Assembly: GCF_000242635.2 (NCBI RefSeq)
Contig: NC_017770.1
Coordinates: forward strand, 992,001 to 1,056,000
Reading direction: 5' to 3'
From: Solitalea canadensis DSM 3403
GTDB lineage: Bacteria; Bacteroidota; Bacteroidia; Sphingobacteriales; Sphingobacteriaceae
Length of the DNA: 64,000 bases
Below the pieces are notes generated by a model. It was given only the letters and a program-made list of their open reading frames with translations, was not told the DNA's origin and searched no databases. The position numbers and the translations under genes are program-made. This document shows positions 11,272-52,169 of the stretch, piece after piece (the stretch's first letter is position 1; every line of letters starts with the position of its first letter).

Positions 11272-11353
11272 GCCCAGGTGGCGAAATTGGTAAACGTTGC
11301 GGTCTCAGAAGCCGTTGGGAATACCCTTGGGGGTTCGAGTCCCCCCCTGGGCA
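11272..11353 (+). tRNA. tRNA-Leu (anticodon CAG), prophage integration site
   Basis: The acceptor arms GCCCAGG and CCTGGGC pair fully. The D-arm is GGCGAAATTGGTAAACGT, the anticodon loop CTCAGAA reads CAG, and a long variable arm is present. The last 15 bases are part of attL, so integration rebuilds the 3' end and the tRNA stays intact. Its original terminator is now at 52173-52197, beyond attR. Confidence 0.93.
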
Positions 11354-11356
11354 CAA
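11339..11356 (+). other. attL
   Basis: Left copy of the 18-bp att core, overlapping the T-arm and acceptor stem of tRNA-Leu(CAG). A 6-bp hairpin (ggcaca-attc-tgtgcc, 11350-11365) spans its right edge and may be part of the integrase core site. Confidence 0.9.
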
Positions 11357-11496: not shown

Positions 11497-12663
11497 ATGC
11501 ATCAGTACTCTCAGAAGCTTTTAATCCGTAAAGACTATATTAATAAGGAAGGCAAATCAGCCCTTTATTTTCAGGTTATTATAAATAGGAAGATCATTAA
11601 GGTTAATCCGCGTGTTTCATGGGATGTAACCAGGTATGATTTTGTAAAGAATGAACTTATCCCAAGAGGAAAGAAAGACCAGGAATGGATAGATGCCAAG
11701 ATTATTATCGATAAGGTTCGATCTGATATCAATGACATATTCATTAAATACCGTACCTCTGATAAACTACTTACTGAAAATTTATTTTACAAAGAACTTA
11801 ATGCTGCAGGTTCAAAAAAGGATTTTATCCATTACATGGAATCTAAGGTTAAGTACCGGTTTAGGGGAGGATTAATTGATGAAAGCACCTATAAAAAACA
11901 TATTGGAACAGTTGACCGGCTTAAAGAGTTCAAAAACGAAATTGCTTTTTCTGAGCTGTCCGCAAGGATTTTTGAGGATTTTAATGTTTTCTTAAAGAAG
12001 GTGAAAAAAAACAGTGAAAATACACGCTGGGGAAGGTTTAAGAACATTTCAACATATCTGAATATTGCAAAAGATGAAGGAATTGTTTTTGAAAATCCAT
12101 TCCTGAATATGAATGATAAACCGAAGCAGGTACCAGGTACTATTGAGTACTTAACTAAGCAAGAGGTGAAAAAACTTAAACAGCTGTATGAAAAAAATGA
12201 TCTTCCAGGACATTTAATGAGAGAGTTGAAAAGTTACTTGTTTTCATGCCATACTGGCGTTCGTATTTCAGATATTGCTCATCTCTCCAATGAAAACATT
12301 ATTGGTGATGAACTGGTCTTTATACCTCATAAAACAAGACGCTTTAATCGGCCCGTAAGGATTCCCTTACTATCTTATGCAAAAAAGTTAATCGAAGGGA
12401 AAAAGGGGTTATTACTGGAGAAAGTTGCGGATCAGAAAATGAATGAGAATTTGAAGCTTATTGCGGAGAAGGCCAAAATAAGCAAGGAATTAAGCTTTCA
12501 TACTGCCAGACATACTTTTGCTACCTTGTTTTTAGCTGCAGGTGGAAATATTGCAGTACTTAAAGAACTTATGGGACATGCAGCTATAAAAACTACAATG
12601 GTATATGTACACATTGATGCAGAACAGAGAAAACAACAAATGTCTTTGATGGAAAGTCTATAA
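11497..12663 (+). CDS. int: phage tyrosine recombinase (integrase)
   Basis: This 388-residue integrase has an N-terminal arm-binding region and a SAM-like core-binding domain (about 100-200). The catalytic domain residues are all present: Arg256 (HTGVR), Lys279 (HKTRR), His335 and Arg338 (HTARH), His361 (MGH) and Tyr370 (VYVHI). It should catalyse recombination between attP and the tRNA-Leu attB. It starts 140 bp from attL and reads away from it. A strong hairpin terminator follows. After excision and circularisation it would lie just downstream of the two HTH genes now at 51.4-52.1 kb. Confidence 0.95.
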   Translation: MHQYSQKLLIRKDYINKEGKSALYFQVIINRKIIKVNPRVSWDVTRYDFVKNELIPRGKKDQEWIDAKIIIDKVRSDINDIFIKYRTSDKLLTENLFYKELNAAGSKKDFIHYMESKVKYRFRGGLIDESTYKKHIGTVDRLKEFKNEIAFSELSARIFEDFNVFLKKVKKNSENTRWGRFKNISTYLNIAKDEGIVFENPFLNMNDKPKQVPGTIEYLTKQEVKKLKQLYEKNDLPGHLMRELKSYLFSCHTGVRISDIAHLSNENIIGDELVFIPHKTRRFNRPVRIPLLSYAKKLIEGKKGLLLEKVADQKMNENLKLIAEKAKISKELSFHTARHTFATLFLAAGGNIAVLKELMGHAAIKTTMVYVHIDAEQRKQQMSLMESL

Positions 12664-12664
12664 A

Positions 12665-12693
12665 TAAAAGCCCTTTGATGAGGGCTTTTATTT
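12665..12693. terminator. integrase terminator
   Basis: The arms aaaagccc (12666-12673) and gggctttt (12682-12689) are followed by attttatt. The hairpin also overlaps the end of the convergent gene at 12693. Confidence 0.75.
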
Positions 12694-13031
12694 TATTGAA
12701 CCCAGTTGTTTTGGGTGACAATTTCTAATAACTCCTCGTGATCTTGCCGCTCCAACCGGTATAAAAAGCGATAGAGCATGTACATTTCAAATATTTCCGA
12801 CTCATCCAGTTCAGGAAAATGAGTTTCGTTAGTAAGGTTTTGGAAGAACAGTTCTAACAGACTGTTCATGGCTTTGCCGGCATCAGCACCGGTGGTGTAC
12901 CATTGTACAAAGCAATTGAGCTTAGCTTGGCTTAACAAGTTAGGGTGTGCCTCAACAGTTAATGTAACCGTTTTTGGGATGCCGGCTGGTGCTCCTTGAG
13001 CATTGGCGGCTTTTTTCGAGTGTTTCTGCAT
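12693..13031 (-). CDS. unknown cargo protein, tandem paralog A
   Basis: This protein of about 112 residues matches no family I recognise. It has a variable Lys/Ala-rich N-terminus, a short beta-prone segment (TVTLTVEAHPNLL), then a helical C-terminal half (LNCFVQWYTTGADAGKAMNSLLELFF). It ends in an acidic tail with DESEIFEMYMLYRFLYRLERQDHEE. There is no signal peptide. It is about 65-70 per cent identical by eye to the next gene in the same orientation, so the pair is a tandem duplication. I chose the ATG at 13031 because alignment with the paralog starts there (MQK versus MQN). This start lies inside a conserved pseudoknot-like element. Confidence 0.6.
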   Translation of the reverse strand: MQKHSKKAANAQGAPAGIPKTVTLTVEAHPNLLSQAKLNCFVQWYTTGADAGKAMNSLLELFFQNLTNETHFPELDESEIFEMYMLYRFLYRLERQDHEELLEIVTQNNWVQ

Positions 13032-13180
13032 ACTGTAAAAAAGTCCCGTGTGCTGCAGAAACACTCATACCTGTTTGCACAAGCGAAGGAATGCCGCTCC
13101 AAACGGCTCACACGGGATTATCTTAAGTTTTGTTGATTTATACTTTGATGTACAAACAACGGGTATTAGTATTTCTGCAT
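13018..13180 (-). ncRNA. structured leader/intervening RNA element A (pseudoknot at start codon)
   Basis: On the gene strand the order is as follows. Strand U (13179-13168). Stem P1 5' arm (13117-13109). A small GCCG/CGGC hairpin (13107-13093). A hairpin CTTGT-GCAA-ACAGG (13083-13070). Strand G (13066-13054). P1 3' arm (13052-13044). Strand D covering the start codon (13030-13018). P1 pairs over 9 bp and G pairs with D over 13 bp, which makes a pseudoknot. U can pair with G instead over 12 bp with one wobble. The same layout with different bases occurs in element B. The wobble pairs are only valid in RNA of the gene strand. Confidence 0.6.
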
Positions 13181-13254
13181 CACAAACATGCAAAAGAATT
13201 TTAATTTCATCGGTTTACAATTGTATAAATCTAGTTGACATTTGTAGGTAAATA
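13175..13254 (-). promoter_or_regulatory. conserved upstream block A with mini-ORF
   Basis: About 80 bp here is clearly similar to 13772-13852 upstream of the paralog, while the sequence between differs more. It contains a -7-like TACAATTG on the gene strand, a GCAT-7nt-ATGC hairpin and a mini-ORF whose last codons (ATGCAGAAATACTAA) mimic the true gene start. It is probably the promoter and leader of gene A. Confidence 0.5.
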
Positions 13255-13306
13255 TAAGCAAGTTGTAATGCTTGTGCTATACTATAAATGTGGGATTCCA
13301 ATCGGT

Positions 13307-13627
13307 TTATTGATGACTTACTTCTTTTGCCTCTTCATGATCCTGGTATTCTAACCGGTATAAAAAACGGTAGAGCATGTACACCTCAAATATCTCCGAC
13401 TCATTCAGTACAGGAAAATGAGTCTCATTAGTTACATTTTGGAAGAAAAGTTCTAACAGACTGTTCATTGCTTTACGAGCATCAGCCCCTCTGGTGTACC
13501 AGTTTACAAAGCAATTTAGTTGAGCTTGGCTTAATAGGTTAGGATGTACCTTCACGGTTAAGGTTGCCATTTGAGAGGTAGTCTCTGCTCCTTGAGCGTC
13601 AACGGATTTTTTCGGTTTGTTCTGCAT
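13307..13627 (-). CDS. unknown cargo protein, tandem paralog B
   Basis: This protein of about 106 residues is homologous to the gene at 12693-13031 over its whole length. The shared core includes HPNLLSQAQLNCFVNWYTRGAD and AMNSLLELFFQNVTNETHFP. The N-terminal eight codons differ, because they form one arm of the covarying pseudoknot. No family recognised; the C-terminal half should be helical. The ATG at 13627 was chosen because similarity to the paralog begins there. A longer in-frame extension would read through the pseudoknot and is not conserved as protein. Both genes lie with DUF4468 at the distal end of the late operon, a typical cargo position. Confidence 0.6.
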   Translation of the reverse strand: MQNKPKKSVDAQGAETTSQMATLTVKVHPNLLSQAQLNCFVNWYTRGADARKAMNSLLELFFQNVTNETHFPVLNESEIFEVYMLYRFLYRLEYQDHEEAKEVSHQ

Positions 13628-13778
13628 GGTATAAATAGCCCCGAGTGCTGCAGAACAAATCTTACGTGGTAAAAACACGAAGAAGGGTTGCCGGCCTAAC
13701 CGGCTCACTCGGGATTTATCTTAAAATGTTGGTGATTGTAAACCTTTAATGATTTACCATCATAAAATCGTCCTGCAT
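13616..13778 (-). ncRNA. structured leader/intervening RNA element B (pseudoknot at start codon)
   Basis: The layout matches element A. Strand U is at 13777-13768. The P1 5' arm CCCGAGTG is at 13713-13706. A GCCGG/CCGGC hairpin is at 13704-13690 and a CGTG/CACG hairpin at 13679-13665. Strand G is at 13659-13649, the P1 3' arm at 13647-13640 and strand D at 13626-13616. P1 differs from element A by a compensatory T-A to A-T change. G and D are different in sequence yet still pair over 11 bp. U pairs with G over 10 bp with two G-U wobbles. Confidence 0.6.
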
Positions 13779-13852
13779 TGCAAACATGCGAAACAATTTT
13801 AATTTAGTAGGCTTACAAGGCTATAAATCTAATTGCCATTTGTAACAAATGT
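13772..13852 (-). promoter_or_regulatory. conserved upstream block B
   Basis: Counterpart of the block at 13175-13254. It shares the TTTATA-nn-TTGTAA segment, a TAAATTAAAATT run and the GCATGTTTGnnATGCAG motif that starts a mini-ORF (MFAMQ...). It probably contains the promoter of gene B. Confidence 0.5.
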
Positions 13853-13859
13853 AAGGCGG

Positions 13860-14507
13860 TTACCAATCGTTTTTACCATTTGAAGGTTTTTCAACCGCTA
13901 TTTTTAATTCATCAATTATAATCTTAGCGCTTTCGTCCACATTTCTTAAAATGTCTGCCCAAAGTCTAAGCATTGATTTATTTACCCAGTAGTCACGTTT
14001 TTGCTCACAACAGTATTTATGATAAGATTGATATGTATTTTCAACTAGAGTTTCATCTGGATGAGGGATTTCTTTTGATGGGGCAAGCATTACCCGAAAG
14101 TTATTCAACTCATATTTATATTTGTTGTCCTTAAAAGTTAAGTTAAGTGTAAAATAAAGCGAGTAGGTAGTAATATTTTCCATCCCTAATGATTTGCTAG
14201 AAATATTTACTTTGTCAATGGCTTTAATGATTAGTTTGCCAGCCTCCTTATCATCCATTTGAATAACATCTTGTGCCGAATTAAATGTTAAAGCTGTCCA
14301 TTCTTTAGCTCTAACAAATAGTTCTTTCATCTTTACACTGTCAACAATTACAACACCAGTGTAGGCAATTCGCCCATTATCAAAAGGAAGTCTAATTTCA
14401 GGAAAGGTTTCTTTGGCTGATTTCGGCTTAAGTTTATCAAAGTACATGTCATCTTGCGCCAATGCCAAGATTGGCAACATCATAAGTAGTAGAAATATTT
14501 TTTTCAT
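13860..14507 (-). CDS. secreted DUF4468 domain protein (prophage cargo)
   Basis: This 215-residue protein has a signal peptide (MKKIFLLLMMLPILALAQ). A DUF4468 domain follows, recognisable by LFVRAKEWTALTFNSAQDVI and QMDDKEAGKLIIK at about 64-95. DUF4468 is a TBP-like-fold domain common in Bacteroidota envelope proteins, with no established function. It lies downstream of the tape measure gene, beyond a terminator, and so is probably expressed separately as a lysogenic-conversion gene. The AT content is higher than in the neighbouring tail genes. Confidence 0.75.
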   Translation of the reverse strand: MKKIFLLLMMLPILALAQDDMYFDKLKPKSAKETFPEIRLPFDNGRIAYTGVVIVDSVKMKELFVRAKEWTALTFNSAQDVIQMDDKEAGKLIIKAIDKVNISSKSLGMENITTYSLYFTLNLTFKDNKYKYELNNFRVMLAPSKEIPHPDETLVENTYQSYHKYCCEQKRDYWVNKSMLRLWADILRNVDESAKIIIDELKIAVEKPSNGKNDW

Positions 14508-52151: not shown

Positions 52152-52169
52152 GTCCCCCCCTGGGCACAA
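52152..52169 (+). other. attR
   Basis: Right copy of the 18-bp att core (gtccccccctgggcacaa). No tRNA body precedes it, so the tRNA is rebuilt only at attL. Confidence 0.9.

Follow-up and report, generated by a model that had tools for sequence, protein, structure and literature searches.

A candidate self-coded antisense leader of Bacteroidota phages and other mobile genes, predicted to silence translation at the start codon

Two paralogous genes in a prophage of Solitalea canadensis DSM 3403 are each preceded by a leader in which one strand (G), held in the loop of a stem (P1), is complementary both to a strand further upstream (E) and to the strand that carries the start codon of the gene (D). 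The same strands recur elsewhere in the Bacteroidota with the pairing kept and the bases changed, and the three-strand structure is near certain. Its function we infer from sequence: we propose, with a probability of roughly two in three, that it is a self-coded antisense leader of Bacteroidota phages and other mobile genes, which silences translation at the start codon.

Two leaders at the integrase end of a prophage

The window (the whole stretch of DNA analysed, 64,000 nt) lies in a genome of 5.2 Mb on a single contig and contains a prophage of ~40.8 kb bounded by an attL/attR pair (11339-11356 / 52152-52169). The integrase adjoins the tRNA, copies A and B both lie on the minus strand at this end of the prophage, and the gene of copy A is convergent with the integrase; one 40.7 kb viral record in IMG/VR carries both copies. 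Both paralogous genes described in the initial annotation, each behind a structured element, are present (A 13031-12693, B 13627-13307, minus strand). Its term 'cargo' suits them, given their place at the integrase end and the relatives of the element that precede antirepressor-like and toxin genes. The parts are:

11339..11356, attL, 18-bp direct repeat at the 3' end of tRNA-Leu(CAG), from shared 14-mers and tRNA prediction
11497..12663, plus strand, tyrosine integrase of the prophage (Pfam Phage_integrase 9.4e-20; PHROG integrase)
12693..13031, minus strand, copy A orphan protein of 112 aa, no significant Pfam or PHROG match
13017..13031, minus strand, copy A strand D including the start codon (ATG 13031-13029)
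13044..13052, minus strand, copy A P1 3' strand, followed by a T-run
13054..13067, minus strand, copy A strand G (antisense code)
13093..13107, minus strand, copy A hairpin h1
13109..13117, minus strand, copy A P1 5' strand, 9 bp stem
13168..13179, minus strand, copy A strand E, 12 bp with G including one G-U, helix continuing to about 13149
13183..13190, minus strand, copy A promoter box resembling a -7 box, CATGTTTG, from sequence, 2 nt before the purine that precedes E
13307..13627, minus strand, copy B orphan protein of 106 aa, 73% identical to A, no significant Pfam or PHROG match
13616..13627, minus strand, copy B strand D including the start codon (ATG 13627-13625)
13639..13647, minus strand, copy B P1 3' strand
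13649..13659, minus strand, copy B strand G
13690..13704, minus strand, copy B hairpin h1
13706..13714, minus strand, copy B P1 5' strand, 9 bp stem
13768..13777, minus strand, copy B strand E, 10 bp with G including two G-U, helix continuing to about 13753
13781..13788, minus strand, copy B promoter box resembling a -7 box, CATGTTTG
52152-52169, attR, second copy of the 18-bp tRNA-Leu(CAG) repeat

Strand E lies ~150 nt upstream of the start codon in A and B, just after a box resembling TAnnTTTG, which we take to be the Bacteroidota -7 consensus and by which the boxes before E were identified. A scan of the 64,000-nt window against Rfam at the gathering threshold returned two tRNAs and no other family. 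Integron attC sites were rejected, as the genes are convergent with the integrase and have promoter boxes of their own. A type III toxin-antitoxin system, in which tandem RNA pseudoknot repeats precede a toxin gene, was likewise rejected, there being one P1 unit before A, one before B, and no tandem repeats. Behind copies A and B lie a DUF4468 protein (13860-14507, also phrog_4002), which begins by eye like a signal peptide and is possibly lysogenic cargo, and a long gene that by eye looks like one for a tape measure.

Pairing in copies A and B

P1 comprises 9 bp in each copy with the compensatory change reported between them, and under a simple random-substitution model such pairing has a chance probability of 0.023–0.027 (A/B). 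G pairs with the start-codon strand D, as annotated, over 13–14 bp in A (13067-13054/13030-13017) and 11 bp in B (13659-13649/13626-13616), with chance probabilities under the same simple model of 0.02 from A to B and 0.00007 from B to A. Pairing G of A with D of B gives -9.5 kcal/mol, compared to -22.3 kcal/mol with its own D.

Strand E, absent from the initial annotation, pairs with the same G over 12 bp in A and 10 bp in B (P = 0.0009, simple substitution model), and G thus has two mutually exclusive partners. The pseudoknot formerly drawn from P1 and G:D is borne out in its topology by homologs, but not as a single static structure, since E also pairs with G. The E:G helix runs inward for more than 10 further pairs in both copies, through sequence that has almost wholly diverged. 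Predicted energies of the extended helix are -34.9 (A) and -30.1 (B) kcal/mol, and in 5000 shuffles of everything but E and G an equally good helix arose in 0.08% of cases for A and 0.16% for B. Plain folding of copy A formed E:G when E was included (z -3.1) and G:D when it was omitted (z -1.8); copy B formed P1 and some other pairs with or without E, and neither the full E:G helix nor G:D (z -2.4 with E, -1.9 without).

Relatives of the element

Searches with the A and B proteins matched only their own genome at family level (1 of 251 genomes) and order level (1 of 400), only their own record in IMG/VR, and nothing in genome_contigs, phages or plasmids. At phylum level 17 of 395 genomes gave a match at E up to 0.1; the best besides their own (L008 and L009, E 2e-4 each over 4,211 reading frames) are antisense to longer open frames and were rejected. 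A loose peptide pattern found 39 genome and 3 viral stretches, one of the viral ones being their own record, and scoring identified no relative among the other 41. The AlphaFold model of the B protein was poor (mean pLDDT 59, from 2 sequences) and a PDB fold search with it gave no match at E below 0.001, while Padloc on A returned AbiEii alone (E 0.016).

A covariance model of P1 and h1 built from just the two copies (R2) found relatives that these protein searches could not. It matched 10 of 150 family genomes at E up to 0.1, their own included, with four strong matches (E 5e-13 to 5e-7) in which P1 has 9–10 bp, G:D 9–18 bp and E:G 15–18 bp, the letters differing in each; two of the five weak matches (L073, L074) lacked the strands. 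DNA patterns run against IMG/VR returned 25, 30 and 8 stretches, from which R2 scoring gave L085 and L089. A descriptor scan marked 19 places in 955 kb, 13 of them judged members, compared to 4 in a single Markov resample of equal size. Patterns and descriptor together added L085, L089, L102, L110, L113, L115, L129 and L132, with the caveat that two of the viral patterns force the first 7–9 bp of G:D and that the descriptor also asks for G:D.

A third search used a model (R3) built from an alignment of 12 sequences (A5) with G and D left unpaired, so that its matches test G:D, consensus letters there still being favoured. R3 matched 22 of 251 family genomes, 35 of 145 genomes of one genus (g13), 3 of 20 of another group (g21) and 3 of 296 across the phylum including their own, in samples that overlap and at places that include non-members such as L159 and L160. 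The other two phylum-level loci were, by eye, a member (L137) and a non-member (L138). A larger alignment (A6) contains 39 of 50 R3 matches, training set included, from 36 of 74 sources plus L136, which stands for the window; a further one (A7) holds 44 matches from 41 loci, with L195 and L207 replaced by the longer L236 and L222.

Some members were kept out of alignments: L115 throughout, for a long P1 insert (its G:D has 15 bp), L132 from A5 after misalignment by MAFFT, and from A6 L141, L161 and L164 (core identical to one kept) and L147 and L148 (identical to each other; G:D 13, E:G 18). Also left out of A6 were L130, in which by eye E:G is intact and D damaged, L132 and L134, members by eye with the start codon at the 3' end of D, and L138, L159 and L160, which were unconvincing by eye. 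At L138 (1501-1579) a D-like start region, ATGCAGAACAACAAG, stands behind a different hairpin with a T-run, with no E or G found. In the open PMC literature, which mostly excludes subscription journals and preprints, no paper among the matches listed appeared to describe the element.

Covariation, strand polarity and geometry

In A5, 94.3% of cells over 28 pairs are paired and 22 pairs show two-sided changes; the covariation was matched by 0 of 500 shuffles, and pairing slid out of register reached at most 48.4%. In A6 (39 sequences; P1, h1 and G:D) 94.8% of cells are paired, 96.4% in G:D alone, with 225 two-sided cells and at most 42% for slid pairing. Its covariation score of 0.623 compares to 0.196 when shuffled and was reached by none of 500 shuffles, while its 21 two-sided pairs were reached by two of 500. 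P1 and G:D pairing is thus kept in homologs with changed bases, and the selection on structure that the initial annotation had suspected is strongly supported by covariation in P1, h1 and G:D. Of the two small hairpins it had placed inside P1, only the first (h1) looks general by eye. P1 and h1 also keep some fixed letters.

Elements could be parsed in 81 of 83 aligned matches, the best ATG or GTG in range being chosen for D. G:D is present at at least 9 of 12 positions in 77 of the 81 and at all 12 in 65, and E:G at at least 11 of 12 positions in 73. Those parsed without G:D are L158, L233, the first element of L222 and the second of L230, while L169 and the second element of L236 were unparsed. 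Three (L158, L169, L233) keep E:G and have lost D, so G:D is not indispensable everywhere. Within A6, E matches its own G at at least 11 of 12 positions in 33 of 39 sequences, compared to 14.6% when G is swapped and 2.4% when the upstream DNA is shuffled.

The two helices differ in their composition. Across the 77 elements with G:D, all of which also keep E:G, the 924 cells of G:D comprise 909 Watson-Crick pairs, 3 G-U pairs and 12 mismatches, and those of E:G 776, 126 and 22, respectively. Of the 126 wobbles, 115 place a U in E opposite G and 11 are G:U; these would be A-C mismatches on the opposite strand, and the pairing that is kept is therefore that of the sense RNA. There are 27 distinct G codes among 37 distinct triples of strands, and at 57 of the 75 positions where D and E differ in these triples the pair with G is kept (42 are C-to-T changes that keep U:G), the other 18 breaking it. 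Possibly the wobble in E keeps E and D from being perfect direct repeats in the DNA, or tunes the switch. Over 18-nt strands in 42 distinct members both G:D and E:G average -20.7 kcal/mol, as a two-state switch would have, with G:D stronger in 24 and swapped G:D at -9.1 kcal/mol; such predicted energies cannot tell which pairing wins during transcription.

The geometry is also constrained, with a gap of 1 nt between G and the P1 3' strand in 13 of 14 measured elements; in L089, where the stem is bulged, the script found only a 4-bp P1. A [TC]AnnTTTG box precedes E in 11 of 14 (at a distance of 3 nt in ten of them and of 4 nt in L110) and a purine stands directly before E in 33 of 37 distinct triples, which together suggest that E forms the 5' end of the RNA. 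A run of at least 4 T falls within the 14 nt after P1 in 29 of 39 sequences, and this run may simply reflect an A+T-rich, open 5' leader. An upstream open reading frame at E was rejected, as by eye the length of the frame following E varies among members from short to long.

Downstream genes and genomic settings

Among 21 downstream proteins scanned with Pfam (A, B, and sets of ten and nine), two pass the curated cut-off, namely KilA-N at L102 (6e-23; PHROG transcriptional regulator 1e-27, anti-repressor Ant 4e-4) and a SymE toxin at L137 (3.4e-11). At L110 Bro-N falls just under the cut-off (6e-5), with a PHROG anti-repressor match at 1.8e-6, and the remaining proteins scanned, A and B included, have no significant Pfam family. 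A role as a switch is for these a guess, since most of the proteins have no known family. The L183 element is flanked by an Ant-like gene (phrog_524, 1.7e-36) and, on its opposite side, by an integrase and a tape measure; L179 also has a tape measure. By eye, only L185 of nine g13 loci has phage-like genes, and the phage setting thus holds for part of the family.

In g13 the leader and an N-terminal KNxNTQLP stretch are common to two protein families (~178 and ~212 aa) whose bodies differ, and the same code is found with different protein bodies; a profile comparison of A/B with the 178-aa family found no relation (probability 0.2%). Six g13 copies (e.g. L191, L193, L140, L196) are alike for several dozen nt past the stop codon, in most cases as far as a CCCCTCC/GGAGGGG repeat, which looks as though a ~0.9-kb cassette were mobile on its own. 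Directly upstream of the copies in L070, L071, L188 and L190 is a low-complexity repeat (NYRLQRL or ILAVDSS in open frames). By eye, PIN-domain-like genes (L177, L178) and HTH- or excisionase-like genes (L177, L178, L188) lie divergent from the g13 copies, perhaps forming a type II toxin-antitoxin pair.

Antisense codes within genomes

The 68 elements in 34 g13 genomes use 14 codes (a few elements without D being counted), and 19 of the 20 genomes with several copies have no repeated code, the exception being G869. One same-code pair was observed compared to 6.68 expected (P = 0.004), a statistic that ignores relatedness and to which assemblies may contribute by merging near-identical copies. 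In a first, smaller set the corresponding values were 0.073 for all genomes, 0.006 for g13 and, for the two protein families taken separately, 0.097 and 0.82.

Codes are not simply markers of a locus, since of 13 pairs with a common downstream flank 12 differ in code; among same-code pairs 1 of 237 has such a flank in common. Upstream flanks are alike in 74 of 245 same-code pairs and 247 of 1834 different-code pairs, an excess among those of the same code. We ascribe this likeness to the low-complexity repeat seen by eye, which does not cover the same-code excess. One genome (G066) carries at L156 (1237-1613) two differently coded elements separated by 264 nt, of which the second falls within the first one's reading frame, and two further codes at L174 and L175.

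Proposed mechanism and alternative explanations

Under our proposal transcription would start at or next to E, making E the 5' end of the RNA, which would then fold P1 so as to hold G in its loop, ~1 nt from the P1 3' strand. G could pair with E or with D (the first ~9–18 nt of the gene from the start codon), one partner at a time, and when on D would block the ribosome at the start and keep the gene silent, with E competing against D for G. G might act from the same RNA or from a stable short RNA running from E to the P1 3' strand, made by processing or by a stop at the T-run. The silenced genes would be the switches or toxins of the element (antirepressor-like, SymE or orphan).

A resident antisense strand may also silence an incoming element of the same code, other codes escaping. 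In this more tentative part of the proposal, for which we hold the odds to be a little short of even, G carries an exchangeable code of ~12 nt or more that acts in trans and confers a code-specific immunity, so that codes would diversify and orthogonal copies coexist. In g13 the leader and first codons would have turned into a module that is combined with various protein bodies and has spread beyond phages.

Alternatively, the element could be a type I-like toxin-antitoxin leader, keeping toxins silent until it is cut or unfolded, with no immunity between elements. The SymE toxin at L137, the small orphan proteins downstream, and the PIN- and HTH-like genes seen by eye near some copies are consistent with this, but the antirepressor-like proteins at L102 and L110 are not what it predicts, and downstream proteins of 178–235 aa are of a size that we take to be atypical of type I toxins; we consider it rather doubtful.

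A purely cis-acting translational switch, in which G:D closes the start, E:G opens it, and a signal on the P1/h1 core chooses between them with no antisense in trans, would account for the equal mean energy of the two mutually exclusive helices, for the fixed letters among the conserved P1 and h1, and for G:D lying within one transcript. Such a switch needs no copy-specific codes, yet codes are unrepeated in nearly all multi-copy g13 genomes (19 of 20) and differ between nearly all pairs with a common downstream flank (12 of 13), and the variety of downstream genes makes one common ligand less likely. We therefore regard it as unlikely.

It is very improbable that E, G and D are operator or recombination site copies acting as DNA, their specificity drifting with the protein. 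E and D are direct repeats with G inverted, all three change together, and some relatives encode proteins of DNA-binding type (KilA-N, Bro-N-like), which is consistent with such sites. Against this, the E:G wobbles (126, in U:G and G:U form) far outnumber the 22 mismatches and would be A-C on the other strand, P1 and h1 are separate covarying stems, and one code occurs with different protein bodies. Finally, template switching, which matches short inverted repeats without selection, could produce apparent compensatory changes by copying G into D or E, but it would perfect E:G as much as G:D, when E is rich in wobbles and D is not, and P1, h1, G:D and E:G are kept jointly with the near-constant 1-nt gap (13 of 14), making such an artefact hardly credible.

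Comparison with known antisense systems

For what follows we take seqB to be the name of the antisense strand in phage P4 CI RNA, and we assume the mechanism and fold of C4 on which the comparison draws. The initial annotation knew of no described RNA with this layout, but there is a precedent: P4 CI RNA has the same order of parts, to judge from the portions of PMC4825925 available. According to these, a leader antisense RNA pairs with sites upstream and downstream in the same transcript, and P4 immunity acts by premature transcription termination (PMC4825925). The order E-[P1..G..P1']-D corresponds to seqA-seqB-seqC, within a mobile element in both cases, the layout rather than the sequence being compared. 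Unlike the premature termination described in those portions for P4, the downstream site of the present element is the start codon itself, and the element occurs in Bacteroidota, with many codes and different downstream genes.

In phage P1 the C4 antisense RNA controls the antirepressor Ant (PMC8201110, from the part available), and in the accessible part of PMC2864571 a table lists "c4-a1b1" as a motif of its own and C4 only in Proteobacteria and phages. The topology of C4 of P1/P7 with a1b1 appears similar to that of the present element, and the genes behind the L102 and L110 elements are antirepressor-like. Two traits of C4 and CI recur here: a leader antisense strand complementary to upstream and downstream sites, probably on a single transcript, and, for part of the family (the window prophage, L179, L183), a location in a phage or prophage. 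Rfam C4 (RF01695) had no match in the window at the gathering threshold, nor at E up to 10 in seven loci including A and B; the element would thus work like C4/CI without being filed in the C4 family. Over the elements of these seven loci Rfam gave two sub-threshold matches and no family at gathering score: mir-3473 over the L069 element (32.9 bits, cut-off 71.8, E 0.0015), which follows the G:D hairpin, and mir-492 on the opposite strand of the L070 element (E 5.9).

We take the Gifsy-1 gene anrP to encode an antirepressor. In that prophage the IsrK / STnc1160 leader transcript gives rise to small RNAs, with readthrough towards anrP (PMC4825925, same portions); it resembles our element as a prophage leader transcript, and those portions mention no self-complementary start-codon strand for IsrK.

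Little is known of RNA-based phage regulation in the Bacteroidota, to which the element would add a recurrent RNA of the P4-CI/P1-C4 kind. Bacteroidota rely little on Shine-Dalgarno pairing, and in such hosts the start codon is a sensible target for silencing. With ~27 natural antisense codes on one conserved scaffold and a competing strand, the design is directly testable and could yield programmable translation switches. It also marks candidate phage switches and toxins that protein searches miss.

The SymE-family gene behind the L137 element provides a link to SymE/SymR. SymR is encoded on the strand opposite SymE, unlike the antisense of the present element, which lies on the same strand, in the leader.
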